From a virus, in IMG/VR virus record IMGVR_UViG_3300028800_000214, positions 1-36,035 of that record: DNA of 36,035 bases; one strand, 5' to 3'. A program made the position numbers and the translations under genes. Under the pieces are notes generated by a model. It had not been told where the DNA came from. It saw only the letters and a list, made by a program, of their open reading frames with translations, and did not search any database. Shown here piece after piece: positions 4,502-32,520 of the stretch. Positions within the stretch are counted from its first letter, which is position 1, and each line of letters starts with the position of its first letter.

Positions 4502-4643
4502 TTCCGTACCCTATACATGTGACGGCGGGGTGGATAGGCATGTTCTCCTATGTATAGCTAGTTATGTGACGCAGGGGGTAGGCCCTGCTGCAGATAAGTT
4601 GTATGCCGATCAACTATTTTCTCGTCTCGTAAGGAGTTCCTTC
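4502..4643 (+). promoter_or_regulatory. Leader region of the 47-46 operon with two inverted repeats
   Basis: A 142-base gap without a convincing gene. CTATACAT at 4511-4518 is repeated in inverted form as ATGTATAG at 4550-4557. GCAGGG at 4571-4576 pairs with CCCTGC at 4583-4588 across a six-base loop. A clear AAGGAG ribosome-binding site at 4631-4636 serves gene 47. Promoter, operator and attenuator are all possible readings. Confidence 0.45.
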
Positions 4644-5699
4644 ATGAAGGTCGCACTGATCACAGACCAGCATTTCGGTGCGCGAGGCGACAGCCCCCAG
4701 ATAGCAGACCACCAGGAGAAGTTCTATAGGGAGGTCTTCTTCCCGTACCTGGATGCCAACGGTATCCACGACGTGGTGGACCTGGGTGACACCTTCGACA
4801 GGAGGAAGTACACGAACCACCTGTCCCTGGACAGAGCTAAGAAGATGTTCTTCGACCCCATCCTGGAGAGGGAGATCAACCTGACGATCATCGTCGGAAA
4901 CCACGACATCTACCACAAGGACAGGCTCGACCCGAACTCCGTCGAGTTGTTCCTGGCTGGGAACTACAACTTCAACATCGTCACCGAACCCTACGAGACG
5001 ACGTTCGGAGCCGAGACCGTGATCCTCATGCCGTGGATATGTGACTCCAATCGCAAGAAGGCGTACGAGCTCATGGAGCGGTCCAAGGCGCAGGTGCTCT
5101 TCGGCCACCTGGAGCTGAAGGGGTTCGAGATGTACCGAGGCCTCCCTCAGGAGAACGGCGACGACCCCCTCGACTTCCAGAAGTTCGCCCTGGTGTGTTC
5201 CGGCCACTACCACCACAAGTCCACGTACGGGAACATCAACTACCTAGGATGCCCATACGAGATGACTTGGTCAGACTGGGACGACCAGAAGGGATTCCAC
5301 GTCTTCGACACGGAGACGAGGTCCATCGAGTTCGTCCCTAACCCCTACCGCCTCCACCACAAGCTCGAGTGGACCGGTCTGTCTGCAGACTTCGTCGGCT
5401 CGTATGGAAACTATGACCTCAAGGACCTCGAGGGGGCTTTTGTCAAGGTCGTCGTGCGAGAGCGTGGCGACGAAGGTGTTTTCGACGAATTCCTCAAGGC
5501 CGCCGAGGATATAGCTGAGAACGTGCAGGTGATCGACGGGCTCGAGAAGACGGAGCTGAAGGAGAACGAGGAGGCATTGGAATCAGAAGACACGCTCTCG
5601 CTCGTTCGCCGATACATAGACCAGCAGGACCTCGGTGCTCCGTCAGAAGCCGTGTACGGTCTCGTTCGTGATCTCTACGAAGAAGCCTCCCAAGGGTAG
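4644..5699 (+). CDS. 47: gp47 recombination nuclease subunit (SbcD/Mre11-like)
   Basis: 351 residues from ATG at 4644, chosen over upstream in-frame starts because of the AAGGAG site and the family N-terminus MKVALITDQHFG. The metallophosphatase motifs are all present in order: DQHFG, DLGDTFDR, GNHDIYH, FGHLELKG and SGHYHHKS. gp47 with gp46 forms the Mre11-Rad50-like complex that resects double-strand ends for recombination and helps degrade host DNA. The stop is TAG, and gene 46 starts two bases later in another frame. Confidence 0.94.
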   Translation: MKVALITDQHFGARGDSPQIADHQEKFYREVFFPYLDANGIHDVVDLGDTFDRRKYTNHLSLDRAKKMFFDPILEREINLTIIVGNHDIYHKDRLDPNSVELFLAGNYNFNIVTEPYETTFGAETVILMPWICDSNRKKAYELMERSKAQVLFGHLELKGFEMYRGLPQENGDDPLDFQKFALVCSGHYHHKSTYGNINYLGCPYEMTWSDWDDQKGFHVFDTETRSIEFVPNPYRLHHKLEWTGLSADFVGSYGNYDLKDLEGAFVKVVVRERGDEGVFDEFLKAAEDIAENVQVIDGLEKTELKENEEALESEDTLSLVRRYIDQQDLGAPSEAVYGLVRDLYEEASQG

Positions 5700-5701
5700 A
5701 A

Positions 5702-7405
5702 ATGCTCCTCATCAAGACAGCTCGATGGATGAACTTCCTCTCCACGGGCAACTATTGGAACGAGCTTCGGCTCGACACCCACCCGACAACCCTTATCGTA
5801 GGGTTGAACGGAGGTGGAAAGTCCACGTTCCTAGACGCGGTCTCCTTCGCTCTCTACGGCAAACCGTTCCGAAACGTTACCAAGAACCAGCTCGTCAATT
5901 CCATCAACCAGAAAGGTGCGATGGTGGAGATCGAGTTCCATAAGGAAGGGCACGAGTACCTGGTGCGTCGAGGCATCAAGCCAGGTGTCTTCGAGATCTA
6001 TCGGGACGGCGTCCTCATACCTCAGGACGCGTCCGTGAAGGACTACCAAGAGATCCTGGAGAGAGACGTCCTCAGGATGGACCACCGCTCCTTCTGCCAG
6101 GTCGTCACCCTCGGTTCCGCCTCCTTCGTCCCGTTCATGCAGCTACCTGCCGGGCACCGTCGAGAGTTCGTCGAGGACCTGCTCGACATCCGTGTGTTCT
6201 CCTCGATGGCGAAGGTCCTGAAGTCGAGGATGGACGACAACAAGACAGAACTCCTCTCCAAGAAGAAGGATCTCGACAACTCCGTGTCTTTCCTAGAGGC
6301 CTCTACCTCTGACTATAACAGGGTCCTTGAGAAGAACCAGAAGGCAAGATCTGACAACGCCGCCGAAGTCGCTCGGTTGAAGGGTGAGCTGAAGGCCCTC
6401 AAGGATGAGTACGAGACGTCACTCACCAAGGAGAAGGAACTCCGAGAAGCCATCTCAGATTCCGAGGACGTCTTATCCAGAAGGGACGCGGCCATCAAGG
6501 AGTTGGCCGGGCTCGAGCACAGAGAGAGGGACCTCAGTTCAGAGAGCCATTTCCTAGAGAGCGGGGAGGTCTGCCCGACCTGTAGACAAGGGATCGACCC
6601 GAGCCATGCCGTCGATCGGATGAGGGAACTCCTCCCGACCTACGAGGAGGTAACCGTCGGTATAGCTGAGATGAAGTTGATCATCAAGGAATGCGACGAC
6701 AGGATCGACTCCATCCAGTCCCTCAGCAATGAGGCGAATTCCTGGGTCCAGAAGAAATATATCGCAATGGTCAAGGCAGAGGAGACCTCCAAGGCCATCT
6801 CAGCTCTCCAGAAACCAGACCCATCCATAGACGAGGAGACGATCCTTGCGGATCGAATGAAGGGACAGGAAATTAAAACGAACCTCCTGAAGGAGGAGGT
6901 TTCTGGCCTCGTTGAGAAACGCAAGGTCATGGACTCCGCCTCAGTCCTCCTGAAAGATGGCGGCATCAAGACCCACATCGTTAGGCAGTACGTTCCTCTC
7001 ATAAACCGACTCGTCAACCGGTACCTCACCGACATGGACTTCTTCGTCCAGTTCGAACTAGACGAGGAGTTCAACGAGAGCATCAAGAGCCGATTTCGTG
7101 ACGTCTTCTCCTACGCCTCGTTCTCAGAGGGCGAGAAGCTCCGCATCGACTTGGCCCTTCTGTTCACGTGGAGAGACATCGCCAAGATAAGGAACTCGGC
7201 GTCTTGTAACCTCCTCGTCATGGATGAGATCCTTGACTCCAGTCTTGATTCCGGAGGCATCGAGGAACTCATAAAGGTCTTGAAGCACGTGACGCAAGGC
7301 ACCAACACGTTCATCATCTCGCATCGTGGTGATCAACTCGTCGATAAGTTCAACGAGGTCGTTCGTTTCAAGAAGGACGGTTACTTCTCAAGGAGGGTTG
7401 AGTGA
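5702..7405 (+). CDS. 46: gp46 recombination nuclease ATPase (SbcC/Rad50-like)
   Basis: 567 residues, close to T4 gp46 (560). Walker A GLNGGGKST lies near residues 34-42, a zinc-hook CPTC motif near 291 sits between long coiled-coil arms, the ABC signature FSEGEKLRIDLAL is near 473, and Walker B LLVMDEILDSSLD near 503. It forms a complex with gp47. It overlaps the next gene by four bases (GTGA), so the FkbM-type methyltransferase is translated with the recombination genes. Confidence 0.94.
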   Translation: MLLIKTARWMNFLSTGNYWNELRLDTHPTTLIVGLNGGGKSTFLDAVSFALYGKPFRNVTKNQLVNSINQKGAMVEIEFHKEGHEYLVRRGIKPGVFEIYRDGVLIPQDASVKDYQEILERDVLRMDHRSFCQVVTLGSASFVPFMQLPAGHRREFVEDLLDIRVFSSMAKVLKSRMDDNKTELLSKKKDLDNSVSFLEASTSDYNRVLEKNQKARSDNAAEVARLKGELKALKDEYETSLTKEKELREAISDSEDVLSRRDAAIKELAGLEHRERDLSSESHFLESGEVCPTCRQGIDPSHAVDRMRELLPTYEEVTVGIAEMKLIIKECDDRIDSIQSLSNEANSWVQKKYIAMVKAEETSKAISALQKPDPSIDEETILADRMKGQEIKTNLLKEEVSGLVEKRKVMDSASVLLKDGGIKTHIVRQYVPLINRLVNRYLTDMDFFVQFELDEEFNESIKSRFRDVFSYASFSEGEKLRIDLALLFTWRDIAKIRNSASCNLLVMDEILDSSLDSGGIEELIKVLKHVTQGTNTFIISHRGDQLVDKFNEVVRFKKDGYFSRRVE

Positions 7406-12061: not shown

Positions 12062-12430
12062 ATGCCAGTGAAAGACACGAAGACGGCTCTCACCAACCCC
12101 CGTGAGAGCGTGAAGGTCTTGGAGGAATGCATCGACGTCCAGATCAGGAAGAGCAACGACTACCAGAACCCAAGCTCCAGGGTCAAACAGGCTGACTACT
12201 ACACCCACGGAATCGACACGATCCTGGACATCATGAAGGGGAAACTCCTTCGCCTGTACTCCGTGAGTGAAGCCATGGCGAACGATCCGGACTACCAGCC
12301 GAACTTCGAAAGCCTCGAGGACTCCTTCAAGGATTTGATCAACTACGCCAGTTTCGGTGTCTCCTACCTCAGGGGCAAGATCCCTGGACAGGACATCGAT
12401 CGTGACTTTCTGAACAGGAAGAAAGGATGA
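12062..12430 (+). CDS. Nmad1-like (DUF1599) nucleotide-modification-associated protein
   Basis: 122 residues, all-helical. KSNDYQNPSSRVKQADYY, MKGKLLRLYS and ESLEDSFKDLINYASFGVSY match the DUF1599 pattern of an NDY near the start, then KxxRL, then a DxxxDLINYA helix. This family is named nucleotide modification associated domain 1 because it sits with base-modification genes, and it belongs to the all-alpha NTP pyrophosphatase-like group. It lies directly before the hydroxymethylase-like gene, which fits. Confidence 0.6.
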   Translation: MPVKDTKTALTNPRESVKVLEECIDVQIRKSNDYQNPSSRVKQADYYTHGIDTILDIMKGKLLRLYSVSEAMANDPDYQPNFESLEDSFKDLINYASFGVSYLRGKIPGQDIDRDFLNRKKG

Positions 12431-12549
12431 TTCCACAGCTCTCGAACTCCGAGCTCGCCGTTCTCTACGTCGCCGGCTCCGTCATCTACTTCGTTTCATC
12501 TCTGATATGGTTCTACGTCACTAGAAAATGGGAGAGGTTGAACCAATGA
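12427..12549 (+). CDS. Small membrane protein
   Basis: 40 residues with ATGA overlaps at both ends, typical of a real gene here. A hydrophobic stretch LAVLYVAGSVIYFVSSLIWF forms one transmembrane helix, followed by a short basic tail VTRKWERLNQ that should stay in the cytoplasm. Function unknown. Confidence 0.6.
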   Translation: MIPQLSNSELAVLYVAGSVIYFVSSLIWFYVTRKWERLNQ

Positions 12550-13280
12550 AAGACTTTTCTGTATCCGACGTCAGGTCGTACATGTCGGATGCTCTGAGCT
12601 TCGAGGAGTTCGTCATCGACAAGACCGGAGTGAAGATGGTTGAATTCATCGGCGCCTCGTTCTTCGCCGATAAGCCAACCATCTTCGGTGAGGTCAACCA
12701 CGACTACGCAGAGAGGGAGATCCAATGGTACCTCTCCCAATCCCTGAACGTCAACGACATCCCTGGAAAGGTTCCGGAGATATGGAAGAAAGTCGCGACC
12801 CCGTCTGGTGAGATCAACTCGAACTACGGGTGGTGCGTCTTCTCCGACGGTAACTTCACCCAGGCAGAGAAGGTCGTCACCGAGCTTAAGAAGCACCCGT
12901 TCTCTCGTCGAGCCGTGATGATCTACACTCGTCCAAGGATGTGGTTCGACTACGATCGCGATGGGATGTCGGACTTCATGTGCACCAACGCCGTGCAGTA
13001 CCTAGTCCGAAACGGAAAGGTCTGGGCAGTGGTGCAGATGAGGTCGAACGATTCTGTCTTCGGATATAAGAACGATCGTCACTGGCAGGACTTCATGTTG
13101 AAATGGGTCGCCGAACACCTCAACCTTCCCGCCGGCGGTATCCATTGGCAGGTCGGAAGCCTCCACGTCTACGAACGCCACTTCTACCTGGTGGATCACT
13201 TCTCAAAGACTGGAGAAACAACGATCTCCAAGGCTGAATATAACCTCCTGTACCCCCATTCTCCCTGGGCTGATCGATGA
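12546..13280 (+). CDS. 42: Deoxycytidylate 5-hydroxymethylase (ThyA superfamily)
   Basis: 244 residues, matching T4 gp42 in length. It aligns without gaps to the core of E. coli thymidylate synthase: the catalytic Cys falls at residue 146 (DFMCTNAVQY), followed by MRSND for the phosphate-binding loop and the H-x-Y of GSLHVYERH. The residue equivalent to Asn177, which reads the uracil ring, is Asp (GYKND). Asp at this site is the known hallmark of dCMP specificity in T4 hydroxymethylase. The likely product is 5-hydroxymethyl-dCMP from dCMP and methylene-tetrahydrofolate. It sits between Nmad1-like and dCMP deaminase genes. Simple dCMP or dUMP methylation is the alternative. Confidence 0.8.
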   Translation: MKDFSVSDVRSYMSDALSFEEFVIDKTGVKMVEFIGASFFADKPTIFGEVNHDYAEREIQWYLSQSLNVNDIPGKVPEIWKKVATPSGEINSNYGWCVFSDGNFTQAEKVVTELKKHPFSRRAVMIYTRPRMWFDYDRDGMSDFMCTNAVQYLVRNGKVWAVVQMRSNDSVFGYKNDRHWQDFMLKWVAEHLNLPAGGIHWQVGSLHVYERHFYLVDHFSKTGETTISKAEYNLLYPHSPWADR

Positions 13281-13729
13281 CGAACTGGGACCAGCGCTGG
13301 CTGGATGCCGCCAAGTTCTACTCCGGATGGAGCAAAGACCCGTCTACCCAGGTCGGAGCCATAGCCGTCAGGGATAACGACGAGCTCTCCAAGGGCTGGA
13401 ATGGGTTCCCCAGGGGCCTGGCTGATACCCAGGAAAGGCTCGGGGACAGGAACCTCAAGCTCAGGCTGATCGTACACGCCGAGGCCAACTGCATCTACAA
13501 TGCTGGCCGCAAGGGGGTGTCACTCCTGGGTTCCACGATGTATATCCACGGGCTACACGTCTGTTCCGAGTGCGCCAAGGCCTGCGTCCAGGCCGGGGTG
13601 AAAAAGGTCGTCATGCGGTACAGGGAAATGGACTACCAGCGCTGGGCTGAGTCCTGCAACCTGGCTCAAGACATCTTCACCGAGGCAGGTGTGGATTGGG
13701 ACAGCGAACTCATCGAGGACAACACATGA
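13277..13729 (+). CDS. cd: Deoxycytidylate deaminase
   Basis: 150 residues of the cytidine deaminase fold. The zinc site is HAEANCIYNA (His and catalytic Glu) plus CSECAKAC (two Cys ligands). The N-terminus MTNWDQRWLDAAKFYSGWSK and STQVGAI are typical of dCMP deaminases. It converts dCMP to dUMP, feeding thymidylate synthesis and lowering dCMP. Because the upstream enzyme appears to use dCMP, the two compete for or balance the same pool. Overlaps both neighbours. Confidence 0.9.
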   Translation: MTNWDQRWLDAAKFYSGWSKDPSTQVGAIAVRDNDELSKGWNGFPRGLADTQERLGDRNLKLRLIVHAEANCIYNAGRKGVSLLGSTMYIHGLHVCSECAKACVQAGVKKVVMRYREMDYQRWAESCNLAQDIFTEAGVDWDSELIEDNT

Positions 13730-13929
13730 CTACCCAAGTTTTGATCATCAATAAGGGTCCTAAAACCGTCTACGTCGAAGGCGCCAATCGTACGGTACTC
13801 AAGCCCTACGAAGAAGCGACTTTGCACGTCTGGAAAGATGGCGAGCTCCGCATCGGAGAAGTCGAGGAGCTTACTTCAGAAGAAGTCGACCGTCTTTCGG
13901 CTGAAACTGAAAACCCCACGCTGAAATGA
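13726..13929 (+). CDS. Hypothetical 67-residue protein
   Basis: ATG at 13726 overlaps the deaminase stop. The product begins MTTQVLIINKGPKTVYVEG, has a beta-rich first half and an acidic C-terminal helix (TSEEVDRLSAE). It could be a small beta-sandwich or an adaptor. No family recognised; coupling on both sides supports it as a real gene. Confidence 0.6.
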   Translation: MTTQVLIINKGPKTVYVEGANRTVLKPYEEATLHVWKDGELRIGEVEELTSEEVDRLSAETENPTLK

Positions 13930-14168
13930 GCTCCCAGGCATACAAGGAAGGACATGACGCCTTCGTTCTCCTCGTCTCCACCGGTGATCTCAAGGAGAAC
14001 CCATACTCATCCCTGCTCAAATCTTCCCACAAGAAGTGGAATGAGGGGTACTGGAACGCCATGTACGAGTGGAAGCAACGGCTTACGCCGAACGACATCC
14101 ATCTCATAGTCCATGCCCTGATGGAGAACGGGTCTTCCCTCTCTTGGCATGAGGAGCACGTAGGATGA
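13926..14168 (+). CDS. Small protein with RMF-like pattern
   Basis: 80 residues. AYKEGHDAF, then NPYSS and later KWNEGYWNAMYEW, follow the pattern G-x-x-A, NPY, W-x-x-G-W-x-x-A seen in ribosome modulation factor-like proteins that are common in phages and proteobacteria. True RMF binds ribosomes and makes them dormant; whether this one does is unknown. ATGA overlaps on both sides. Confidence 0.5.
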   Translation: MSSQAYKEGHDAFVLLVSTGDLKENPYSSLLKSSHKKWNEGYWNAMYEWKQRLTPNDIHLIVHALMENGSSLSWHEEHVG

Positions 14169-14611
14169 CGGACACCGTAGTCTTCGGGATGGCACCGTCT
14201 TGGTTGAAGAAGGGCGGTCTCTGCAAGAGCCTGGTTCGACTGGCCGAGTGGGCTGAGAAGGTGGGACTCGTCAAGTACGAGTTCCACAACGTCATCCAGC
14301 ATCCCATCGATTCACCGAAGTTCGCCATGGTGGACCAGGAGTTCGTGCTGAGGCAGGCTGAAGGGAAGACTAAGATAGTCGCCCTTGGTTCATTCGTCTC
14401 GGATACCTTGAGGCGACTCGGCATACCTCACCACAGGATCTCGCATCCCTCGGCGAGGAACAGGCAGTTCAACGATCCAACCCACGAGTCCAGGATGCTC
14501 GAGGGACTGAAGGAGTACCTATGCGATACGGATATATCCACATCTGTGAAGAAAGACACCGCCAGATCCACGAGGAAGGGTGGACGGCAGAACGCGACGA
14601 CGAGTACGTAA
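14165..14611 (+). CDS. Uracil-DNA glycosylase-like protein
   Basis: 148 residues. VFGMAPSWLKKGG at the start, FHNVIQHP in the middle, KIVALGSFVSDTL and then RISHPSARNRQFNDP follow the layout of the UDG-like fold, with a GxAPS-type first loop and an HPS-type last loop. Phage relatives are usually annotated as UDG superfamily proteins. In a base-modification locus it may bind or excise an unusual base rather than uracil. The last 30 residues are low-complexity and overlap the next gene by 91 bases, so the native end may be near residue 118. Confidence 0.55.
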   Translation: MTDTVVFGMAPSWLKKGGLCKSLVRLAEWAEKVGLVKYEFHNVIQHPIDSPKFAMVDQEFVLRQAEGKTKIVALGSFVSDTLRRLGIPHHRISHPSARNRQFNDPTHESRMLEGLKEYLCDTDISTSVKKDTARSTRKGGRQNATTST

Positions 14612-14877
14612 ACGGTGAACTCTTCACCGCAGGCGTCCTCTACTTTCATTCGGGGGCAGGGATCCTTCCTCCCATGCAAGCCGACGGAACCCCGATGGGT
14701 TGGCCGTGGTCACCGGAGTGGTGGAAACCTAAGGGAAGTCTGCGAGACCTGACCCGTTCCGGGGCGCTCCTCCTGGCTGAAAAGGAACGCAGGCAACGAG
14801 CTAAATGGGACGCCGATACCTACATCGTCGACTTGAAGCTCGCGGAAGTCATCGGAGCTCTCGGTGAACTAAAGTGA
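14521..14877 (+). CDS. Conserved phage protein of unknown function
   Basis: 118 residues. EERHRQIHEEGWTAERDDEY near the start, the WPWSPEWWKPKG segment and the closing RDLTRSGALLLAEKERRQR are the markers of a small family spread through phages and prophages, function not established. The conserved ERxRQI starts within ten residues of the ATG, so the long overlap with the preceding gene is real at this end. Confidence 0.7.
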   Translation: MRYGYIHICEERHRQIHEEGWTAERDDEYVNGELFTAGVLYFHSGAGILPPMQADGTPMGWPWSPEWWKPKGSLRDLTRSGALLLAEKERRQRAKWDADTYIVDLKLAEVIGALGELK

Positions 14878-16094
14878 AAATTCAGACAACCAAGTACTAC
14901 GATGAGTTCCTGCGCTACCATGAGATGGCGAAGAAGCAACAGGAACTCTGCAACCTCGGCCTCACTCCGCATCATGAATCGGGCGTGGACGACCCACTCA
15001 TGGAGCACGTCCACCTCTACGACGTGGTTGAACGTAAGTACGCAGGTTTCTCCCAGATCATAAACGACGTCTTCTACGGGTACAGCAAACAGCACCCGTA
15101 TTGGTTCCAGATAGAAGCCGACAAGGCGTCACCCCAGCGCATGGAGATCACCAGGTCTTGGTCAGGAAAAAGACGTGACTTCACAGTCGCCGCATGGCTC
15201 TACGTCTTTATCGTGCATCGAGTGACCGGTTCAGGCATCAACTACGCCAGGAAGCCGAGCGGCTACAACAACACGATCCTTCCAAAACTGGCTGAAGCCA
15301 GGTCCATCGGTGACATGGCGGACATCATCTTCAAGCATCAGGACTGGGCGAAGTCGCCACCGATTTACACTTCCGTGGGCTATCAGTTTCCAGCCTTCCC
15401 GAAGCCGAAGGAGGGGTACAAGAGAGGCGGTGACTACTTCCTCTGTGAGTATGCCCCCCGTCTCGCTAAGGAACTGGAGGCCTACCTCTTCTCCAGTTAC
15501 GGCAGGAAGAGGACCCTCCGTGAGGTCGGAGACTTCATGCTGAACTGGAACGTCGCCAACGGTCTTCGTCAATACAAGTTCCAGTACGCAGCCGTCGTCG
15601 CCGACATAGCTGACTGGTTTCCTCAATTCGTCGACCGCACGTCGCCTTTCTACTACGGCTCCAACGCCGTGGAGTGCATCAACTATCTGGCGAAGCCGGC
15701 CAGTTCCAACGGCAGGCGGAATACGGAGTTCCTGGACGAGGTCATGGCCAAGGCCGCATCGGATACCGGAGGAGTTCCATACAACCTGGAGGACGTCGCC
15801 TGTGACTTCATCAGGTGGGTCGAGAACTACGTCAGGCCTGGTGCCGACTACGACCACGTGGACAGGGACAAGGTGTTCTCGTCCTGCAGGATCAAGGACC
15901 ACCCGTACGGCCGACAGAAAGCCATGCTGGACTTAGGGTTGGTGAAGAGCTTCAACGAGATCTCCGTGCATCCCTCGGACGACTACGTCATCTCCAGGGC
16001 AAAGCTGCACCCAGATCAGTACAGGATGAAGGTCGAAGAGTTCGAACAGGACCTCGCTGCAATCAGGAACTCCATGATGGGGAAAGATCTCTAA
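14874..16094 (+). CDS. Putative glycosylase-fold DNA base hypermodification enzyme
   Basis: 406 residues, mostly helical, GTG start overlapping the previous stop. Two stretches resemble the HhH-glycosylase-like enzymes of thymine hypermodification (aGPT-PPlase, AADT and the helical domain of 5-hmdU kinase). One is KFQYAAVVADIADWFP followed by FYYGSNAVECINYL, like their FxxYQ...DL...GxGA region. The other is LEDVACDFIRWVENYVR, like their CEfdKY helix. It lies beside a PLP enzyme and downstream of nucleotide-modifying genes, as those enzymes do. The assignment is by eye and moderate at best; an uncharacterised phage family is the alternative. Confidence 0.4.
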   Translation: MKIQTTKYYDEFLRYHEMAKKQQELCNLGLTPHHESGVDDPLMEHVHLYDVVERKYAGFSQIINDVFYGYSKQHPYWFQIEADKASPQRMEITRSWSGKRRDFTVAAWLYVFIVHRVTGSGINYARKPSGYNNTILPKLAEARSIGDMADIIFKHQDWAKSPPIYTSVGYQFPAFPKPKEGYKRGGDYFLCEYAPRLAKELEAYLFSSYGRKRTLREVGDFMLNWNVANGLRQYKFQYAAVVADIADWFPQFVDRTSPFYYGSNAVECINYLAKPASSNGRRNTEFLDEVMAKAASDTGGVPYNLEDVACDFIRWVENYVRPGADYDHVDRDKVFSSCRIKDHPYGRQKAMLDLGLVKSFNEISVHPSDDYVISRAKLHPDQYRMKVEEFEQDLAAIRNSMMGKDL

Positions 16095-16097
16095 ACC

Positions 16098-16997
16098 ATG
16101 AGCACTATGGACCACGCGAAGCACGTCGTAGACGGCTGGAACAAAGACATAGCCCCGACAGAATTCTATGACGACGCCGTGCAGCGACTCCTTGACCTGG
16201 CCGGCGACTGGAAGGACCCGTATCCTGACCCGGTTGTTGCCGTCCATGACGGGATCCACGTGGTTCGAGACGACATGCTGGCAGCTGGAACGAAACAGAG
16301 AGGCGGCGCTCTCTTCATGGAGAGGATGGAATCCGACACAGTCGTCTATGTACAACCGAGAGTCGGCCTCGCCGGCGTCTCCATCCTTGAGGCTGCTAAG
16401 CTCTACGGCAAGAAGGTCGTCCTGTTCATGCCGGCTTCGAAACGAATCTCCCTGCATCAGGCATGCACGATCGAACGCGGAGCTGTCCCCATGTTCAAGA
16501 GGATAGCAGCGATGCCGGTTCTCAATGCTGCAGCCAAAAAATGGGCCGAGGAGAACGGAGCGGCGTTCGTGCCACTCGGTCTCAAGCACCCTCTTGTCAC
16601 GGCCGCCATCATGAAGGCAGCGATGAAGATACCAGCTCCTGACGTCGCCTACGTAGCGACGTCTACCGGGGTTCTCACGAGATCCCTGCAGTTGGCATGG
16701 AAGAAAACGGAGTTCGTGTCCGTCTGCGTTGCACGCAACATGAAGGCTGGTGAATTGGGGAGAGCTACTCCCATCACGTACCCTCTCGAGTTTGCAAAAC
16801 CTGCTCCGCTTCGTATGCAGCCGCCGTTCCCGACGGTTCCGACCTACGACGCCAAGGTATGGCAGTACGCCGTCGAAGGGCTTCACGAGGTGGGAGGTGA
16901 GGAGAGCGCCGACGTCCTCATGTGGAATGTCGGAAAGGAGCCCGTTCTTCAGGACGAGACACTGCCGGATAGGATCGATTCCCGTCGGAACTGGTAG
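16098..16997 (+). CDS. PLP-dependent enzyme, fold type II (tryptophan synthase beta-like)
   Basis: 299 residues. VVRDDMLAAGTKQRGG near residue 57 matches the RED-x-x-x-GG-x-K-x-R motif of ACC deaminase and D-cysteine desulfhydrase-like enzymes, making Lys66 the probable PLP lysine. GLAGVSILEAAKLYGKKVVL corresponds to the phosphate and substrate loop followed by the Rossmann-like helix. It is somewhat shorter than free metabolic enzymes. Fold-type-II and other PLP enzymes are found in phage DNA hypermodification loci, where they act on amino acids attached to bases. The product here is unknown. TAG stop. Confidence 0.62.
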   Translation: MSTMDHAKHVVDGWNKDIAPTEFYDDAVQRLLDLAGDWKDPYPDPVVAVHDGIHVVRDDMLAAGTKQRGGALFMERMESDTVVYVQPRVGLAGVSILEAAKLYGKKVVLFMPASKRISLHQACTIERGAVPMFKRIAAMPVLNAAAKKWAEENGAAFVPLGLKHPLVTAAIMKAAMKIPAPDVAYVATSTGVLTRSLQLAWKKTEFVSVCVARNMKAGELGRATPITYPLEFAKPAPLRMQPPFPTVPTYDAKVWQYAVEGLHEVGGEESADVLMWNVGKEPVLQDETLPDRIDSRRNW

Positions 16998-17002
16998 AAG
17001 AA

Positions 17003-17031
17003 CGTGGGCCGCAGCTATGCCACGGCCCACG
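17003..17031. terminator. Hairpin between convergent genes
   Basis: A perfect nine-base stem, CGTGGGCCG at 17003-17011 and CGGCCCACG at 17023-17031, with an 11-base loop. It lies between the end of the PLP gene (forward) and the end of the 69-residue reverse gene, so it probably works in both directions. There is no clear T-run, so intrinsic termination may be weak. Confidence 0.6.
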
Positions 17032-17045
17032 CCAAGCCGGTCACG

Positions 17046-17255
17046 TTACGACCGCAGAGTGAAGTTGTACTCATTGCCGTCGGCCGACTCGATGGCCGTC
17101 ACGGCGCGCTTGTAGTTCTTCTCCAACACCTTCGGCGAACGGGCCGCCAGAGCGACCACCTTCGCGTTGGTCGGGGTCGGACGGTGCTTGAGGTTGCCGA
17201 GCGCCTGAGCGATCGTCAACGCCATCTGGATGTTGGCTTTCTTTGCCTTCGCCAT
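17046..17255 (-). CDS. Small basic helical protein
   Basis: 69 residues, reverse strand, ATG at 17255 with a GGAG site ten bases upstream and stop TAA at 17046-17048. Begins MAKAKKANIQMALTIAQALG and is rich in Lys, Ala and Asn, suggesting a nucleic-acid-binding or DNA-mimic-opposing role. It is an isolated reverse gene within a forward cluster, flanked by a hairpin and a divergent control region, so it is probably expressed on its own schedule. No family recognised. Confidence 0.65.
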   Translation of the reverse strand: MAKAKKANIQMALTIAQALGNLKHRPTPTNAKVVALAARSPKVLEKNYKRAVTAIESADGNEYNFTLRS

Positions 17256-17392
17256 AGTTCATTTTCTCCATTATCAAAAGCGGGGAGTATCCCCGAGTCA
17301 CGTAAGATATATCCCCTCTCGGGAATTAAGTACACAGCCCCCTCCGAGCTGACGATATATAGCCGATACCATCACGACTTCGGTGCATCGCA
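17256..17392. promoter_or_regulatory. Divergent control region with palindrome and ATAyATAG motif
   Basis: A 137-base gap between diverging genes, with no gene seen. CGGGGA at 17271-17276 and TCCCCG at 17280-17285 form a palindrome with a three-base centre, possibly an operator. GATATATAGCCG at 17354-17365 resembles motifs upstream of the polymerase (25720) and uvsX (28274) and may be the forward promoter. AAGATATAT at about 17303 is a possible second -10. Confidence 0.45.
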
Positions 17393-18427
17393 ATGAAACA
17401 ACTCCTAGTCAGCCCGGTCACACCCATCTCCCCAAGAGCGACCTCCCACAGAGGAGCCCAGGCTGAGATATATGCCGACCAGATCGAACGCCACACCGAC
17501 CATCCGGTTGAAGTAGCGTATTCCGGTCATGACCTTGACCCATCAGAGTACCAGGTCGTCTATACCTACCAAGGAAATGACTGGGGTGGTTCCCTCAACC
17601 TCTTCGGTGGCCTCGACGACCAGACGGCATTCAAGTCGATAACCTTCTTTTCTCGCCTGAAACCAGAGAAAATTTTCTCTCTAGCCATCAAGCATCCTAA
17701 CTACCGTGGCCTCTTCGAGGAACGGCTTATGAAGTCGAAAAGCCAAGACCAGGTTGAAAAATGGCACCAGGTGGACTGGAATCAACTCGACTTCCTGCAA
17801 CAGAATGCACAGGTCTGGGAGAGGGTCCCAGGCCCGACAGCAAAAAGTTCTATTGGTGACAGCCATGCCATCTGCCTGTACAGGCCTGGCAACGCCGTTA
17901 ACTCAATTCCGTTCAAGACTCTCCATGGCGCCCTCGATCACGGTCTCATCAATTTCTGGCCCATCGACCAAGGTTCCCCTGAGCACGTCGAGTTCTACTT
18001 CGGCAACATAGACATTCGTCACCATCTCTGCCGATATGACAGTGAAGAAACCATCCGTCTCGCCAAGGAGTACGTGCTTCAGGCAGAGATAGTTGCCAAC
18101 CTCACGAAAAAAGGTGTCTCGATCTATGAACCTCTACCCATAGAGAACGAGAGCAGGGTTGTTCCGAAAACCGGTTGGTACAAAGGAACACCGTTCTACG
18201 GTTCATGGGAAGAGCGTAACGGCCGTCGATCTCTGTTCATAGATACTCTGGACAGCCTCAAGAGCGATCGAGTGAAGATCGTCCACTGGACGAACTACTT
18301 GACTAACTCGAAGGGGGAACTTGACTTCAAACACATGGAGAAACCAAGGTCCGTGCACCTTGCCCGCAGTTCATATCCTTACTGGCTGGGAAGAAATTCT
18401 GAAACGAAACTGGAGACGTTCGCTTGA
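17393..18427 (+). CDS. SGNH-like protein of unknown substrate
   Basis: 344 residues. The central GDSHAICLYRPG resembles block I of the SGNH/GDSL hydrolase superfamily, and FYFGNIDIRHHLCR could be the later conserved block. The N-terminal 100 residues (MKQLLVSPVTPISPR, then VVYTYQGNDWGGSLNLFGG) look like a separate nucleotide-sugar or Rossmann-like domain. Such proteins hydrolyse or transfer acyl or sugar groups. Its place between the PLP enzyme and the dNMP kinase suggests a part in base decoration or glycan synthesis, but this is inference. Confidence 0.45.
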   Translation: MKQLLVSPVTPISPRATSHRGAQAEIYADQIERHTDHPVEVAYSGHDLDPSEYQVVYTYQGNDWGGSLNLFGGLDDQTAFKSITFFSRLKPEKIFSLAIKHPNYRGLFEERLMKSKSQDQVEKWHQVDWNQLDFLQQNAQVWERVPGPTAKSSIGDSHAICLYRPGNAVNSIPFKTLHGALDHGLINFWPIDQGSPEHVEFYFGNIDIRHHLCRYDSEETIRLAKEYVLQAEIVANLTKKGVSIYEPLPIENESRVVPKTGWYKGTPFYGSWEERNGRRSLFIDTLDSLKSDRVKIVHWTNYLTNSKGELDFKHMEKPRSVHLARSSYPYWLGRNSETKLETFA

Positions 18428-18948
18428 TTTTACCGAAGATCATGGTTGTTGGACACGCAAGGCATGGGAAAGACACAGTAGCAGAACTCCTCATGGAGAG
18501 AGGTTATACGTTCATCAGTTCCAGCATGGCCGCAGCCGAACGGGTCGTCCTGCCTTACCTCAAAGCCAAGGGTATCCACTACGACTCCGTCGAAGATTGC
18601 TTCCAGGATCGAGGTAACCATCGAGCTGAGTGGTACAATGCCATCACTGGCTACAATACCCCGGACAAGGCTCGTCTCGGACGTGAGATCTACAAGGACT
18701 ACGACGTCTACTGTGGTCTTCGCAATTCCCGAGAATTCCACGCCCTTCGCAACGAGGGAGCATTCGACGTCTCTATCTTCGTAGATGCCTCAGAGCGCCT
18801 TCCTCTGGAAGATAAATCCAGCATGGGGATAGAGCCTTGGATGGCTGACTATGTCCTCGACAACAACGGGACACTGGAAGAGCTTATCCCACTCTTCTTT
18901 AACCTCATCACGACCATCGAACGGAAGGCAGGACACACGTGCAGGTAA
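18424..18948 (+). CDS. 1: Deoxynucleoside monophosphate kinase
   Basis: 174 residues, TTG start overlapping the previous stop. The P-loop is VVGHARHGKDTVAELL at residues 8-23, with a short insert and Asp after Lys as in T4 gp1 and related phage dNMP kinases. The later YDVYCGLRNSREFHAL and SIFVDASERL fit the nucleotide-binding core. T4 gp1 phosphorylates dGMP, dTMP and 5-hydroxymethyl-dCMP, so this is the logical next step after the hydroxymethylase. Confidence 0.75.
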   Translation: MILPKIMVVGHARHGKDTVAELLMERGYTFISSSMAAAERVVLPYLKAKGIHYDSVEDCFQDRGNHRAEWYNAITGYNTPDKARLGREIYKDYDVYCGLRNSREFHALRNEGAFDVSIFVDASERLPLEDKSSMGIEPWMADYVLDNNGTLEELIPLFFNLITTIERKAGHTCR

Positions 18949-19775
18949 TAATCCCGGCTGCTGAGCTATCCGAACGAAAGCTCTTCGTCGCGACTCCCAT
19001 GTATGGCGGCCAGTGCGCCGGCGTCTACTGTAAGTCGACCAACGACCTCTCGGCTCAATGTGTCAGAAACAACATCGACACCAGGTTCTTCTACCTCTTC
19101 AACGAGAGCCTGATCACCAGGGCTAGGAACTACTGCGTAGACGAGTTCATGCGTTCGGATTTCACGAACCTGCTCTTCATCGACTCCGACATCGGTTTCA
19201 GCACGGATGCTGTCTTCACCCTCCTGGCCCTCCAGTCTGAGGAGTCCGAGTATGACATCATCTGCGGTACCTACCCCAAGAAGACCATCTCATGGGAGAA
19301 GATCAAGCAGGCAGTCGACAAGGGGGTTGCTGACCAGGATCCCCGTGTTCTGGAGAACTTCGTCGGTGACTTCGTCTTCAACCCGGCCCACACCGGGATG
19401 ATGAACCTCAACGAGCCGAACGAGGTCCTCGAGTCAGGTACCGGGTTCATGATGATCCGTCGTTCCGCCTTCGAGAAGTTCAGGGATGCGTATCCAGAGC
19501 GGTCCTACAAGCCAGACCACGTCCGCCAAGCGGAATTCGATGGCTCCAGGGAGATCCATGCCTTCTTCGACTGCGTGATCGATCCGACGACCCGTCGGTA
19601 CCTGTCCGAAGACTATCGTTTCTGCCAGGACGCTCGTGCCATAGGTCTCAAGGTGTGGCTGTGCCCCTGGATCCAGCTGACACACGTCGGTTCCTATAAC
19701 TTCGGTGGTTCCATGCTAGCGCTCGCCTCCATCGGCGCATCAATGACGGCCGATCCGTCAAAAATCAAGAGGTAG
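18939..19775 (+). CDS. GT-A type glycosyltransferase
   Basis: 278 residues, GTG start. Begins with a Rossmann-like strand (KLFVATPMYGGQ), has a DSDIGF metal-binding DxD motif at about residue 82 after NLLFI, and an acceptor-site stretch GTGFMMIRRSAFEKF near 168 followed by SEDYRFCQDARAIGLKVWL, all typical of GT-A enzymes of the GT2 kind. In T4-type phages glycosyltransferases may glucosylate hydroxymethylated bases or modify glycans. Ends in TAG; the next gene follows after one codon in the same frame. Confidence 0.8.
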   Translation: MQVIIPAAELSERKLFVATPMYGGQCAGVYCKSTNDLSAQCVRNNIDTRFFYLFNESLITRARNYCVDEFMRSDFTNLLFIDSDIGFSTDAVFTLLALQSEESEYDIICGTYPKKTISWEKIKQAVDKGVADQDPRVLENFVGDFVFNPAHTGMMNLNEPNEVLESGTGFMMIRRSAFEKFRDAYPERSYKPDHVRQAEFDGSREIHAFFDCVIDPTTRRYLSEDYRFCQDARAIGLKVWLCPWIQLTHVGSYNFGGSMLALASIGASMTADPSKIKR

Positions 19776-20082: not shown

Positions 20083-20748
20083 ATGCATCTCTCCGACAAG
20101 ACCATCTCTATCCTCAAGAACTTCTCAGGCATCAACGAGTCCCTCCTCTTCAGGCAAGGCAACGTCGTCAGGACTATCGCTCCCGGCAAAGCCGTCATCG
20201 CCAAGGCGACCCTCGAGGAGAGCTTCGAGAAGGACTTCGGTATCTTCAACCTCTCCCGTTTCCTGGGTGTCATCTCCCTGTTCGACAAACCGGACGTGAC
20301 TCTCGGTGACACCAGCCTCTCCATCAAGGCTGGTAGAACGAAGCTCAGGTACACCTACGCCGATCCAACGACCTTCGCCACCATCATGAAGGACTTGAAC
20401 GTACCGGAACCGATCGTATCCTTCCCCTTGAAGGGCGAGGTCCTTCAGAAAATCCTGAAGGCCGGAACCGTTCTCCAGATGCCAGAAGTCGCCTTTGTAG
20501 GTGACGGGAAAACGGTGACGGTCAAGGCCTTCGATTCCACGAAGGACGAGGCATCAGACCAGTTCTCCACAGAGGTTGCTGACTCAGACAAGACCTTCAA
20601 GGCCGTGTTCAAGGTTGCCAACCTGAAGATGATTCCTGCCGACTATACCGTGAGTTTAGCCAAGAAGGATGATAACGCCATCTGCAGGTTCGAGAGCCCG
20701 AACCTGACCTACTGGGTCGCCCTGGAAGCTAAGCCCTCGAGGCTCTGA
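20083..20748 (+). CDS. 45: gp45 sliding clamp
   Basis: 221 residues versus 228 in T4. LSDKTISILKNFSGINESLLFR at the start and SRFLGVISLFDKPDVTLGD are typical, and the two-domain beta-alpha pattern follows. The clamp forms a trimeric ring that tethers gp43 to DNA and is also the activator of gp55-dependent late transcription. An AAGGAAG site precedes the ATG. It heads the 45-44-62-regA operon. Confidence 0.93.
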   Translation: MHLSDKTISILKNFSGINESLLFRQGNVVRTIAPGKAVIAKATLEESFEKDFGIFNLSRFLGVISLFDKPDVTLGDTSLSIKAGRTKLRYTYADPTTFATIMKDLNVPEPIVSFPLKGEVLQKILKAGTVLQMPEVAFVGDGKTVTVKAFDSTKDEASDQFSTEVADSDKTFKAVFKVANLKMIPADYTVSLAKKDDNAICRFESPNLTYWVALEAKPSRL

Positions 20749-20750
20749 TC

Positions 20751-21698
20751 ATGAACCCCATCGCAGAGCAGTTCCTGTGGTCAGAAAAATATCGACCGAG
20801 GACGGTGGAGGACTGCGTCCTCCCGTCAACGACGAAGAAGGTGTTTCTGGATTTCCTCAAGCAGGGGAAGCTTCCGAACTTCCTCTTCACGGGGGGTCCA
20901 GGTATCGGCAAGACGACTGTGGCCAAAGCCCTTTGCGACGAGCTTGGCTGTGACTACTACGTCCTAAACGGGTCGCTGAACGGCAACATCGACACGCTTC
21001 GAAACGAGATCACCAGCTTCGCTTCGACCGTATCTTTCACCGGTGGGAGGAAGTACGTCATCCTCGACGAGGCCGACTACCTGAACCCGTCGTCGACGCA
21101 GCCGGCTCTCCGCAACTTCATGGATGAGTTCTCGGCTAACTGTGGCTTCATCCTGACCTGCAACTACAAGGAAAGAATCCTCGAGCCGCTCAGGTCCCGA
21201 CTCTCCGTCGTCGAGTTCCGCATCGACCCCAAGGAGAAGCAGGAGATGGCCATAGCCTTCTTCAAGAGGGTAGTATCAATCCTGAAGGCAGAGAACGTCC
21301 AGTATGAACCGGACGTCGTAGCCGAGCTGATCAAGAGGCACGTCGGCGACTGGCGCAAGGTGCTCAACGAGCTCCAGCGCTACGCCGCAACGGGGAAGAT
21401 CGACTCAGGCATCTTCTTTTCCCACACAGCTGAGGCCATGTCAGGACTCGTCGCTGCTCTGAAAGAGAAGAACTACACAGCAATGAGGAAGTGGGTGGCA
21501 GAGAACGCCGACACAGACCCACGGGGTATATTCCGTCGTCTTTTCGACGTCGCCAAGGAGAAGATGGAGAACGAGAGCCTCCCCCAGCTGGGCATCACTC
21601 TAGCCAGATATGACTATCAGGCTGCGTTCGTAGCAGACCAAGAACTTAACCTCACAGCTGCCCTCACCGAGGTGATGGCAGATTCTACTTGGAAATAA
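20751..21698 (+). CDS. 44: gp44 clamp loader ATPase subunit
   Basis: 315 residues (T4 gp44: 319), AAA+ fold. Walker A GGPGIGKTTVAKAL near residue 46, Walker B VILDEADYLN near 104, a sensor stretch FILTCNYKERI and the arginine-finger PLRSRLSVVEF. Four copies with one gp62 form the loader that opens the gp45 ring. It lies two bases after gene 45. Confidence 0.95.
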   Translation: MNPIAEQFLWSEKYRPRTVEDCVLPSTTKKVFLDFLKQGKLPNFLFTGGPGIGKTTVAKALCDELGCDYYVLNGSLNGNIDTLRNEITSFASTVSFTGGRKYVILDEADYLNPSSTQPALRNFMDEFSANCGFILTCNYKERILEPLRSRLSVVEFRIDPKEKQEMAIAFFKRVVSILKAENVQYEPDVVAELIKRHVGDWRKVLNELQRYAATGKIDSGIFFSHTAEAMSGLVAALKEKNYTAMRKWVAENADTDPRGIFRRLFDVAKEKMENESLPQLGITLARYDYQAAFVADQELNLTAALTEVMADSTWK

Positions 21699-25751: not shown

Positions 25752-28268
25752 ATGAGATTCTACACCTCCGCGTTCGCTCGTGGCGACAACGTCTATGTCC
25801 GTTTCGTGGAGGACGGGAAGCGCTTCCAGAGGAAGGTGAAGTACGCGCCGTACCTGTTCCTCCCCACAGACGAGCCAGATGCAGAGTACCACACTATCTA
25901 CGGTAAGCCGGTCCGGAAGAAGGACTTCGATGGGATGTGGGAAGCCAAGCAGTTCTTGAAGGAGTTCGAGGACGTGGAGGGGTTCGAGGTCTACGGCATG
26001 GACGACTTCGTCTACTGCTTCCTCAACGACGCTTTCCAGGGCGAAGTGGTCTATGACAGGAACCAACTCAACATCGGAACCATCGACATCGAGGTGGAGT
26101 CCGACGACGGGTTCCCTGACATCCGAAAGGCAGAAAAGGCCGTCACGGCCATCACCCTCTCGATACGGGGCCACTGCTACTCCTTCGGATGCGGTGAGTT
26201 CAGGACTGACAACCCGAACGTCACGTACTGGAAGTACTCAGATGAGTCGACGATGCTCCAGAGCTTCCTCCACTTCTGGGAGGAACAGAACCTCGACGTC
26301 GTTACCGGTTGGTATATCGAGTTCTTCGATATGCCGTACCTCGTCAACAGGCTCCAAAGGATCCTAGGGGAGGACTACGCCAAGAAGCTGTCGCCGTGGC
26401 AGACCCTCTTCGAGAGGGAAGTCGTCGTCAACGACCGGCCTGTGCAGGTGTTCACTCCGGCGGGCATCGCCGTCCTGGACTACATGCGCCTCTACAAGAA
26501 GTTCCGGTTGGTGCCGCAGGAGTCCTACACCCTCAATCACGTCTGCCAGCAGGAGATCGGGGAAGGTAAACTCGACTACTCAGAGCACGACGACCTCTTC
26601 AGCCTGTACAAGCACGACTTCCAGAAGTTCATGGCGTACAACATCAAGGACGTCGTGCTCGTCGACAAGCTCGATGCCAAGCTGGGCCTCCTCGACCTGG
26701 CCTTCACCCTGGCGTACGACTCCAAGATCAACCTCGACCAGGTGTTCGGTCCGGTGAAGATGTGGGACGTCATCGTCCACAACTACCTGATCGAACGCAA
26801 CATCGTCATCCCGATGTTCAAGAAGGGCGACAAGTTCGGTGAGTTCGAGGGCGCCTTCGTGAAGGAACCCCTTCCGGGTATGCACGAGTGGGTGGCGTCT
26901 TACGACGTCAACGCCCTGTACCCATCCCTCATCGTCCAGCACAATATCTCACCGGAGACCTTCCGAGGTTTTTATCCCAGGAGCTTCGACGAGAAGACCG
27001 AGCTCCTCAAGGGAGCACACATCAAGGACGAAGTTCTCCAGGCACGCCTGCGCGACGAAAACTTGTCATTCTGCATGAACTCTACGCTCTGGGACAGGTC
27101 AAAGGCAGGAGTTTTCCCAGAGCTCGTCGAGAAGTTCTTGGCTGACCGAAAGGTCTTCAAGAACAAGATGAAGGAAGCCGAGAGGGCAAACGCCGCCAAC
27201 CCGTCCAGGGAACTGGAGTTCGCCATCTCCAGGTACCACAACCTGCAGAACACCAAGAAGGTCCAGCTCAATTCCCTGTACGGCGCCCTGGGAAACCAGT
27301 ATTTCCGCTGGTACAAGCTGGCGTTCGCAGAGGCCATCACCAAGACCGGCCGGATCGTCATCCAGACGGTAGAGCAGGACGTCAACACCTATCTCAACAA
27401 GGTGCTCGATACCGGTAACAAGGACTACGTCATCGCCATCGATACCGACTCCAACTACATCGGTCTCGGAGGGGTGTTCGACAAGTTCGTGAAGCCGATG
27501 GGTAAGGTCCCCATGAAGACCGTCATCGACACCATCGACTACTTCTGCTCAGTCAGGTTGGAGGCACAGATCAACAAGTGCTTCGCCAGGGTTGCCGTCG
27601 AGACCAACGCCATGAAGCCTTTCCTCCAGATGAAGAGGGAAGTCATCGCCGAGCGTGGCGTATGGACCGCCAAGAAAAAGTATGTCCTGAATGTTTGGGA
27701 CCAGGAAGGCATTCGATACGACAAGCCGAAGCTCAAGGTCACCGGTCTAGAGCTGATCAAGTCTTCAACGCCTGCCATCTGTCGAGAGCGCCTCAAGGAA
27801 GCCGTGTCCATTATCATGTCGGGGACCAACAAGGAACTCATCGAACACATCGATAGGTTCAGGGAGGAGTTCCGAACCCTCCGTTTGGACGAGATAGGGA
27901 AGCCACAGGGTATCCACGGAATGTCTCAGTACACGGATGCGAGGACCATGACTCCAGTAAAAGGTTGTCCCATGCACGTCCGTGGTGCCATTGCCTTCAA
28001 CAGGATGTTGGCTGAGAAAGGACTCGAGGGTAAGTACCATCCGATCCGTGATTCCGACAAGATCAAGGTATGCTACCTTCGTGAACCAAATCCCCTCAGG
28101 GAGAACATCATCTCCGTCCTGACCGTGCTGCCCAAGGAGTTCGGTCTCGACGGGTACATCGACTACGATACCCAGTTCGAGAAGTCCTTTGTTTCGCCGA
28201 TCACCCTCATCACCAATCGCATCGGCTGGACCACGGAAGTGAAGGCGTCGCTCGACGCCTTCATGTGA
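25752..28268 (+). CDS. 43: gp43 family-B DNA polymerase
   Basis: 838 residues (T4: 898). Exonuclease motif I is TIDIEVES and motif III is YNIKDVV. In motif II, GWYIEFFDMPY, the usual Asn is Tyr at residue 188. Polymerase motif A is SYDVNALYPSLI, motif B KKVQLNSLYGALGN, motif C IDTDSNY with Asp564, and KKKYVLN follows. It replicates phage DNA with proofreading. One continuous gene, with no intron or split as seen in some T4-like phages. Confidence 0.95.
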   Translation: MRFYTSAFARGDNVYVRFVEDGKRFQRKVKYAPYLFLPTDEPDAEYHTIYGKPVRKKDFDGMWEAKQFLKEFEDVEGFEVYGMDDFVYCFLNDAFQGEVVYDRNQLNIGTIDIEVESDDGFPDIRKAEKAVTAITLSIRGHCYSFGCGEFRTDNPNVTYWKYSDESTMLQSFLHFWEEQNLDVVTGWYIEFFDMPYLVNRLQRILGEDYAKKLSPWQTLFEREVVVNDRPVQVFTPAGIAVLDYMRLYKKFRLVPQESYTLNHVCQQEIGEGKLDYSEHDDLFSLYKHDFQKFMAYNIKDVVLVDKLDAKLGLLDLAFTLAYDSKINLDQVFGPVKMWDVIVHNYLIERNIVIPMFKKGDKFGEFEGAFVKEPLPGMHEWVASYDVNALYPSLIVQHNISPETFRGFYPRSFDEKTELLKGAHIKDEVLQARLRDENLSFCMNSTLWDRSKAGVFPELVEKFLADRKVFKNKMKEAERANAANPSRELEFAISRYHNLQNTKKVQLNSLYGALGNQYFRWYKLAFAEAITKTGRIVIQTVEQDVNTYLNKVLDTGNKDYVIAIDTDSNYIGLGGVFDKFVKPMGKVPMKTVIDTIDYFCSVRLEAQINKCFARVAVETNAMKPFLQMKREVIAERGVWTAKKKYVLNVWDQEGIRYDKPKLKVTGLELIKSSTPAICRERLKEAVSIIMSGTNKELIEHIDRFREEFRTLRLDEIGKPQGIHGMSQYTDARTMTPVKGCPMHVRGAIAFNRMLAEKGLEGKYHPIRDSDKIKVCYLREPNPLRENIISVLTVLPKEFGLDGYIDYDTQFEKSFVSPITLITNRIGWTTEVKASLDAFM

Positions 28269-32443: not shown

Positions 32444-32520
32444 GTCCTCGTAGCTCAGTTGGATAGAGTATCGGTTTCCTAAACCGAGTGTCGCAGGTTC
32501 GAATCCTGCCGAGGACGCCA
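32444..32520 (+). tRNA. tRNA-Arg (anticodon CCU)
   Basis: A complete 77-base cloverleaf. Acceptor stem GTCCTCG/CGAGGAC, D-arm, anticodon stem TCGGT/ACCGA around the loop TTCCTAA with anticodon CCT, T-arm GCAGG/CCTGC around TTCGAAT, G discriminator and encoded CCA, then TTTTT. It reads AGG, a codon used very often by the phage genes here. Confidence 0.92.

Follow-up and report, generated by a model that had tools for sequence, protein, structure and literature searches.

A candidate pathway for cytosine hypermodification in an uncultivated T4-type phage

The cassette and its linkage

We analysed the entire virus record IMGVR_UViG_3300028800_000214 from IMG/VR, a stretch of 36,035 bases called the window in this paper, and identified at positions 12062-19775 a cassette of genes, all on the plus strand, that may direct a new type of cytosine modification in phage DNA (Table 1). 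The cassette joins a deoxycytidine monophosphate (dCMP) hydroxymethylase and other nucleotide-pool genes to a block consisting of X406, a large conserved protein, a pyridoxal phosphate (PLP) enzyme and an SGNH/GDSL-like protein. A second protein, fam3, is encoded directly downstream of X406 in most relatives and is absent from the window. An earlier sequence-only reading had proposed that a cytosine-specific entry enzyme is combined here with parts of the thymidine-type pathways, and all of the open reading frames (ORFs) that it named were recovered at the stated positions, on the plus strand.

Close relatives of X406 were found in at least 266 IMG/VR stretches, and copies also occur in four metagenome-assembled bacterial genomes, probably on phage contigs. 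For the analysis of gene order we used 136 loci fetched by X406 or fam3, including 80 with 5 kb of downstream sequence and 89 with 3 kb upstream, as well as 12 large X406 contigs of 118-261 kb, all of which may be incomplete. Among the 80 loci, the PLP gene was present in every one, the SGNH gene in 79 and fam3 in 63. Clustered at 90% identity, the 136 X406 sequences fall into 29 clusters; in these counts, which include many loci that are short fragments, the PLP gene was found in 28 clusters, SGNH in 25, fam3 in 23 and the hydroxymethylase in 17. Because the block recurs in many contigs and across 29 X406 clusters, its grouping is far beyond chance.

Table 1. Genes of the cassette and of its T4-type surroundings in the window
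Feature	Position	Strand	Evidence
Nmad1/DUF1599-like small protein, nucleotide-pool associated, upstream cassette end	12062..12430	+	Pfam DUF1599 E=0.05, phrog_1485 E=6e-12
dCMP hydroxymethylase, T4 gp42 type	12528..13280	+	PDB 1b49, phrog_160 E=3e-56, D-type motif
dCMP deaminase	13277..13729	+	PF00383 E=4e-17, phrog_174 E=2e-37
UDG-superfamily-like protein	14165..14611	+	Relative L064 matches PF03167, E=0.0012
X406, large conserved protein, candidate base-modifying transferase; motif EDVACDFIRW at 306-315	14874..16094	+	Recurrence, shared motif
Fold-type-II PLP enzyme, M6 gp52 family, Schiff-base Lys66	16098..16997	+	PALP 3.5e-4, phrog_7093 7e-36
SGNH/GDSL-like protein (GDSH, G(N/S)IDxRxH, SVH)	17393..18427	+	phrog_13881 E=4e-48; conserved blocks
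T4 gp1-like deoxynucleoside monophosphate kinase	18424..18948	+	PF21448 E=5e-6, phrog_139 E=8e-13
GT-A-like glycosyltransferase, accessory	18939..19775	+	phrog_1574 E=2e-60, NCBIfam HpsN E=1.9e-5 (weak)
UvsW	1396-2859		T4-type gene
SbcD-like phosphoesterase and SMC-type ATPase, matching gp47/gp46	4446-7405		T4-type genes
gp45-like clamp adjoining gp44-like clamp loader	20083-21698		T4-type genes
Family B DNA polymerase	25752-28268		T4-type gene
UvsX	28300-29349		T4-type gene
DnaB/gp41-type helicase	29351-30733		T4-type gene

Entry enzyme and nucleotide-pool genes

A profile built from 13 relatives of the hydroxymethylase (A4) matched the structures of T4 gp42 with E down to 5e-105 (PDB 1b49), and thymidylate synthases followed far behind at E about 1e-19. 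The window protein and the gp42 of Klebsiella T4-like phages share 58-59% identity. Its specificity motif reads RSNDSVFGYKND, in which Asp183 occupies the position of Asn177 of thymidylate synthase and is an Asp as in T4 gp42. This dCMP-type Asp is invariant in A4 and in 54/54 hydroxymethylases read at X406 loci, including the window, and was also present in the divergent copies read from large X406 contigs. In an experiment with environmental phage DNA, Asp at this position marked contigs enriched for modified cytosine (PMC8670742). The assignment of the entry enzyme as a cytosine-specific hydroxymethylase of the dCMP type, which the sequence-only reading had made from the Asp177 position of a ThyA homologue, is thus well supported by its sequence, and its hydroxymethyl product is predicted.

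The dCMP deaminase and the fold-type-II PLP enzyme were likewise confirmed by profile searches, the latter with an invariant lysine. The Nmad1-like, UDG-like, SGNH-like, gp1-like kinase and GT-A labels have weaker profile scores and are supported by PHROGs, relatives or conserved residues. Relatives of the Nmad1/DUF1599-like protein were present in 46/136 X406 loci and in 8/61 loci of a sister cassette described below, and those of the UDG-like protein in 57/136 X406 loci. The gp1-like kinase scored 26.7 bits against the DNMK profile, slightly short of the cut-off of 27.1, and gave no BLAST match to the HMUDK of Pseudomonas phage M6 (gp54). A search for a T4 gp1-type DNMK in the large X406 contigs gave no match, a failure to be read with the same caution as the oxygenase search described below. 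Relatives of the glycosyltransferase were found in only 18/136 X406 loci and hence a sugar, as considered in the earlier reading, is not part of the core of the cassette.

Between the UDG-like gene and X406 there is also a small protein (14521-14877) that matches nine PHROG families, in most cases close to the C-terminal end of the family (phrog_6628 E=1.4e-24), and that tblastn found in none of 80 X406 loci.

The PLP enzyme

Comparison of the window PLP family profile with gp52 of phage M6 by hhalign gave a full-length match (E=8e-8, prob 94.5, 214 columns). Both carry PFPxxxxYDxKxW...WN(V/I)G as a C-terminal signature, and their PLP lysine stands in a K-x-R-G context, GTKQRGG in the window and SFSKIRGV in M6 gp52; in the window family this lysine, Lys66, is invariant. 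A PDB profile search with the PLP alignment found no relative. Judged by sequence, the match to M6 gp52 is the strongest link of the cassette to thymidine systems. In M6 the gene order is gp51 (ADDT, amino acid:DNA transferase), gp52 (PALP), gp53 (radical SAM), gp54 (HMUDK, 5-hydroxymethyldeoxyuridine DNA kinase) and gp55 (HMUDK_hel, the helical domain of that kinase), and the phage DNA carries 5-(2-aminoethyl)deoxyuridine (PMC6449724).

We also found a PLP gene of the window family in the cultured cyanophage Microcystis phage Mae-JY30 (L269:4384-6702), where it is annotated as a 'DNA modification methylase' and lies downstream of two ParB/sulfiredoxin genes; two Erythrobacter phages have similar genes. 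In one X406 lineage (L178:9068-9739), a SLOG/LOG-type gene ('possible lysine decarboxylase', PF03641 E=3e-31) is located between fam3 and the PLP gene. In the window, 395 bases separate the PLP gene from the SGNH gene; in relatives with the same gene order the two lie near each other. This gap includes a basic minus-strand ORF of 69 residues (17046-17255; MAKAKKANIQMAL...) with a plausible ribosome-binding site. Minus-strand ORFs opposite X406 and the PLP gene (15933-17030) were judged to be antisense artefacts of high G+C.

The SGNH protein and a sister cassette

Residues G155-D156-S157-H158 and H322 of the SGNH protein, which are of the catalytic type, do not vary among 12 aligned, diverse members. 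The Lipase_GDSL profile was reached only by a relative (E=0.024), block III reads G(N/S)ID rather than the canonical GxND, the Asp of DxxH is missing, and a PDB profile search gave only a chance match (E=2). Members of this family occur in cultured T4-like Aeromonas phages, the shared component being present in Aeromonas phages 44RR2.8t, 31 and 25 as well as in Stenotrophomonas phage IME13. In 44RR2.8t, SGNH is fused to a C-terminal region, OC, that weakly matches HMUDK_hel (E=0.0036; L151:9190-13170), and an SSF symporter gene lies upstream of the fusion. In Aeromonas phage 25 (L267:3776-7047), a UDP-galactopyranose mutase is encoded two genes ahead of SGNH, along with an unknown protein of 358 residues; a scan starting from this SGNH protein retrieved only 3 close relatives. 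44RR2.8t and phage 25 each have a gene for a gp42-type hydroxymethylase, again with Asp.

OC as a family matched HMUDK_hel by hhalign over 236 columns (E=8e-6), ranking it first of all families with ADDT second, and by this comparison OC is a true relative of both. A set of 61 OC loci (60 were obtained from the scan with the OC region) contained SGNH in 60 and myo-inositol-1-phosphate synthase (MIPS) in 59, one of which matched PF01658 with E=1e-23. The hydroxymethylase was present in 22/61 OC loci, with the dCMP-type Asp in 21/21 that were readable. X406, fam3 and the PLP gene were found in 0/61 OC loci and MIPS in 0/136 X406 loci, a mutual exclusion that is only indicative because these genes served to fetch the loci. 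As SGNH occurs in OC cassettes with a dCMP-type hydroxymethylase, it belongs to the biology of 5-hydroxymethylcytosine (5hmC) whether or not X406 is present, and cassettes appear to exchange the decorating module that surrounds it.

The sister cassette, with a dCMP-type hydroxymethylase, MIPS, OC, SGNH and often a C5-methyltransferase-like gene, is seen at L264:3897-10065, L237:1950-7197, L225:1066-9601 and about 57 more loci (L207-L266), and its content points to a cytosine modification derived from inositol. Genes resembling C5-cytosine methyltransferases (PF00145 E about 1e-17) were found near SGNH at 5 of the X406 and 17 of the OC loci, for example at L061:6737-7933, L044:12591-13790 and L264:8851-10065.

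X406 and fam3

The X406 family is strongly conserved, with about 60% identity between lineages, and is unnamed. Searches of X406 and 15 relatives against Pfam, PHROGs, NCBIfam and PDB profiles returned nothing beyond scattered weak matches to unrelated families. Neither X406 nor fam3 had a BLAST match in a collection of 50,697 phage records, and a PDB profile search with fam3 found no relative. The glycosylase-fold features that had been ascribed to the 406-residue protein were therefore not borne out by any weighty profile match, and what is left of them is one shared motif. X406 and fam3 show a weak likeness in the same register: fam3 as the query ranks X406 first of all families (P=0.016), and our own profile Smith-Waterman comparison with column shuffles gave z=3.1. 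Since P is only 0.016, paralogy of the two is likely and not proven.

We also compared X406 with the families of the known thymidine enzymes, using relatives of M6 gp51 (A6, ADDT) and of M6 gp55 (A7, HMUDK_hel). Comparison of X406 and fam3 with ADDT and HMUDK_hel by hhalign, with single and joint profiles, and by profile Smith-Waterman with column shuffles was not significant; the ADDT profile (PF18724) matched none of 16 X406 members and gave a profile-profile E of 0.15. A motif noticed after the fact, [ED]xxxCx[FWY or hydrophobic], has its three positions at least 80% conserved in X406, fam3, ADDT, HMUDK_hel and OC and in 0/52 other families. In addition, a joint profile of known superfamily members placed X406 above every unrelated family (P about 0.025), with other scores at background. 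Membership of X406 in the superfamily of ADDT and HMUDK_hel (the latter PF18723) is a lead, a homology that profile comparison does not prove.

Genomic setting

The cassette lies between the gp46/47 genes and the gp45/44 genes, and on its gene content the source of the window is an uncultivated phage of the T4 superfamily. No near relative of the window at the DNA level was found in the phage collection searched. The window also carries a tRNA-Arg(CCT) gene at 32444-32520 and, at 33550-33625, a tRNA with anticodon CUA that ARAGORN called as Pyl and that is possibly an amber suppressor. Simple recoding of TAG is not evident, because TAG still terminates 12 of the 49 window genes listed.

Proposed pathway and alternative explanations

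In established pathways, the 5-hydroxymethyl-dCMP made by gp42 is phosphorylated by a gp1-type kinase and then incorporated by the phage polymerase. We propose a similar beginning here, in which the gp42-type enzyme would make 5-hydroxymethyl-dCMP, the gp1-like kinase would pass it into deoxynucleoside triphosphate synthesis for incorporation by the phage polymerase, and the dCMP deaminase and Nmad1-like protein would shape the pool, with 5hmC taking the place of cytosine at replication. After replication, X406, together with fam3 in most relatives, may couple the 5-hydroxymethyl to a small group of amine or amino-acid type, and the M6 gp52-like PLP enzyme may then trim this group, most simply by decarboxylation. 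Such a decarboxylation, of an amino acid that the base carries, was reportedly found for M6-type PLP enzymes by Lee et al. in 2022. The resulting amino-bearing cytosine would block restriction enzymes. The SGNH protein could perform a further shared step, perhaps acyl transfer or hydrolysis, and in some relatives the glycosyltransferase may add a sugar. The dCMP-type entry enzyme, the family membership of the PLP enzyme and the tight linkage are directly supported, and from these we infer the role of X406 as a transferase, the order of the steps and the nature of the group.

It is very probable that the phage DNA contains 5hmC or a derivative, and we consider it likely that the X406/PLP/SGNH block acts on one of these. 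Amino-acid-type hypermodification of 5hmC is the best explanation that we can offer, at roughly even chances; its cytosine part is well supported, and its amino-acid part is putative.

Several observations weigh against this explanation. The hydroxymethylase was found within 3 kb upstream in only 40/89 loci, and a gp42-like gene, encoded in 9/12 large X406 contigs, was not seen in 3/12, though all of these contigs may be incomplete. A search for TET/JBP oxygenases as a source of 5hmC in the contigs without gp42 gave no match and is uninformative, as its control was silent too. The profile-profile comparison of X406 with A6 and A7 gave E=0.15-0.18, within the background of 52 unrelated families. 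The core of the earlier reading, cytosine entry joined to parts of thymidine type, holds with the 54/54 Asp and the PLP product of the M6 gp52 family, but the placement of X406 in the AADT/aGPT-PPlase/HMUDK group was not shown. An action of the PLP enzyme on DNA, or a decarboxylation by it, goes beyond what sequence by itself can show, and the window and its relatives are uncultivated, so that the product is a prediction from genes. Moreover, HMUDK (PF18748), ADDT and HMUDK_hel were undetected in the 12 large X406 contigs, some of them possibly incomplete. Activation of any installed amino acid must therefore differ from the M6 route. The finding that 5-hydroxymethyldeoxyuridine kinase does not phosphorylate 5hmC (PMC6457204) fits the lack of that kinase in these contigs.

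The failure to detect HMUDK, ADDT or HMUDK_hel in the 12 large contigs, together with Asp rather than Asn in 54/54 linked hydroxymethylases, leads us to reject an M6-like thymidine hypermodification by the 5-hydroxymethyldeoxyuridine route in a T4-like phage. Such a route would make the cytosine reading wrong and would agree with a PLP enzyme of the M6 gp52 family and with a dCMP deaminase able to supply deoxyuridine monophosphate. However, M6 gp58 has GAYGAN at this motif, by eye the form with Asn, and we regard the route as highly improbable. An ordinary T4-like 5hmC phage, with plain or glycosylated 5hmC and with X406, PLP and SGNH as a neighbouring operon for host takeover or nucleotide metabolism, seems to us improbable as well. 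The gp42, dCMP deaminase and gp1-like genes are indeed standard in T4-like phages, X406 is without an assigned family, and about half of the loci that reach 3 kb upstream lack an adjacent hydroxymethylase. On the other hand, X406, PLP and SGNH move together across 29 sequence clusters, the PLP enzyme belongs to the M6 family, and SGNH is linked again, in other cassettes, to a dCMP-type hydroxymethylase and an HMUDK_hel-superfamily protein.

Alternatively, 5hmC could be decorated with a group that is not derived from an amino acid, with X406 using a polyol, sugar or acyl donor and the PLP enzyme making or processing that donor as a free metabolite. The SGNH family is common to cassettes with MIPS (59/61), with the SSF symporter (44RR) and with UDP-galactopyranose mutase (phage 25), and the chemistry that they share may therefore be that of a polyol or sugar; a GT-A gene is present in the window. 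We nevertheless find such a donor rather unlikely, given that the PLP enzyme shares its family with an M6 enzyme that works in an amino-acid pathway and that the glycosyltransferase is rare (18/136). The separation of MIPS from X406 loci and of PLP from OC loci points the same way, as an indication only. Carbamoylation of 5hmC was also considered and was set aside because the window cassette has no carbamoyltransferase domain.

Beyond the amino-acid-type decoration itself, we tentatively suggest, as a view more doubtful than not, that cytosine hypermodification in T4-type phages could be modular, with a dCMP hydroxymethylase and a common SGNH protein joined to exchangeable modules. These would be an amino-acid module (X406, fam3 and PLP), an inositol module (MIPS and an HMUDK_hel-like protein) and perhaps one for galactofuranose, and the window would represent the first of amino-acid type, with a novel family of transferases and an activation that is kinase-free or of a new chemistry.

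Comparison with known systems

To our knowledge, amino-acid-derived decoration has been described for phage thymine and not for cytosine, on which sugars and a carbamoyl group are the known decorations. Such a decoration of cytosine, if true, would widen the chemistry of natural DNA, would provide new 5hmC-acting enzymes useful in the labelling and sequencing of 5hmC, and would explain possible restriction evasion by an abundant set of uncultivated phages. The cultured phages with the SGNH component make the DNA content testable now.

The window resembles the M6 thymidine cluster in the PLP family, which matches over its full length, and in the clustering of post-replicative-type genes with a thymidylate-synthase-like hydroxymethylase. 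However, the entry enzyme of the window is of the dCMP type and that of M6 of the dUMP type, and X406, fam3 and SGNH stand in place of HMUDK, ADDT and HMUDK_hel. With T4 and RB69, in which 5hmC receives glucosyl or arabinosyl groups, it shares the gp42-type hydroxymethylase, the dCMP deaminase, the gp1-like kinase and the surrounding T4-type replication genes, whereas the constant decoration genes here are X406, PLP and SGNH instead of the T4/RB69 transferases, and a glycosyltransferase occurs in a minority. The uncultivated 5hmC carbamoyltransferase phages found by MetaGPA (PMC8670742) also have an Asp177 thymidylate-synthase homologue beside a dCMP deaminase and a 5hmC-decorating enzyme, but the window cassette has PLP, X406 and SGNH where these phages have the carbamoyltransferase. 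Finally, the 44RR2.8t fusion (ORF233c) and the MIPS/OC/SGNH cassettes share the SGNH family and a genomic dCMP-type hydroxymethylase with the window; their decorating protein, in contrast, is OC, accompanied by MIPS or the SSF symporter in place of X406 and the PLP enzyme.

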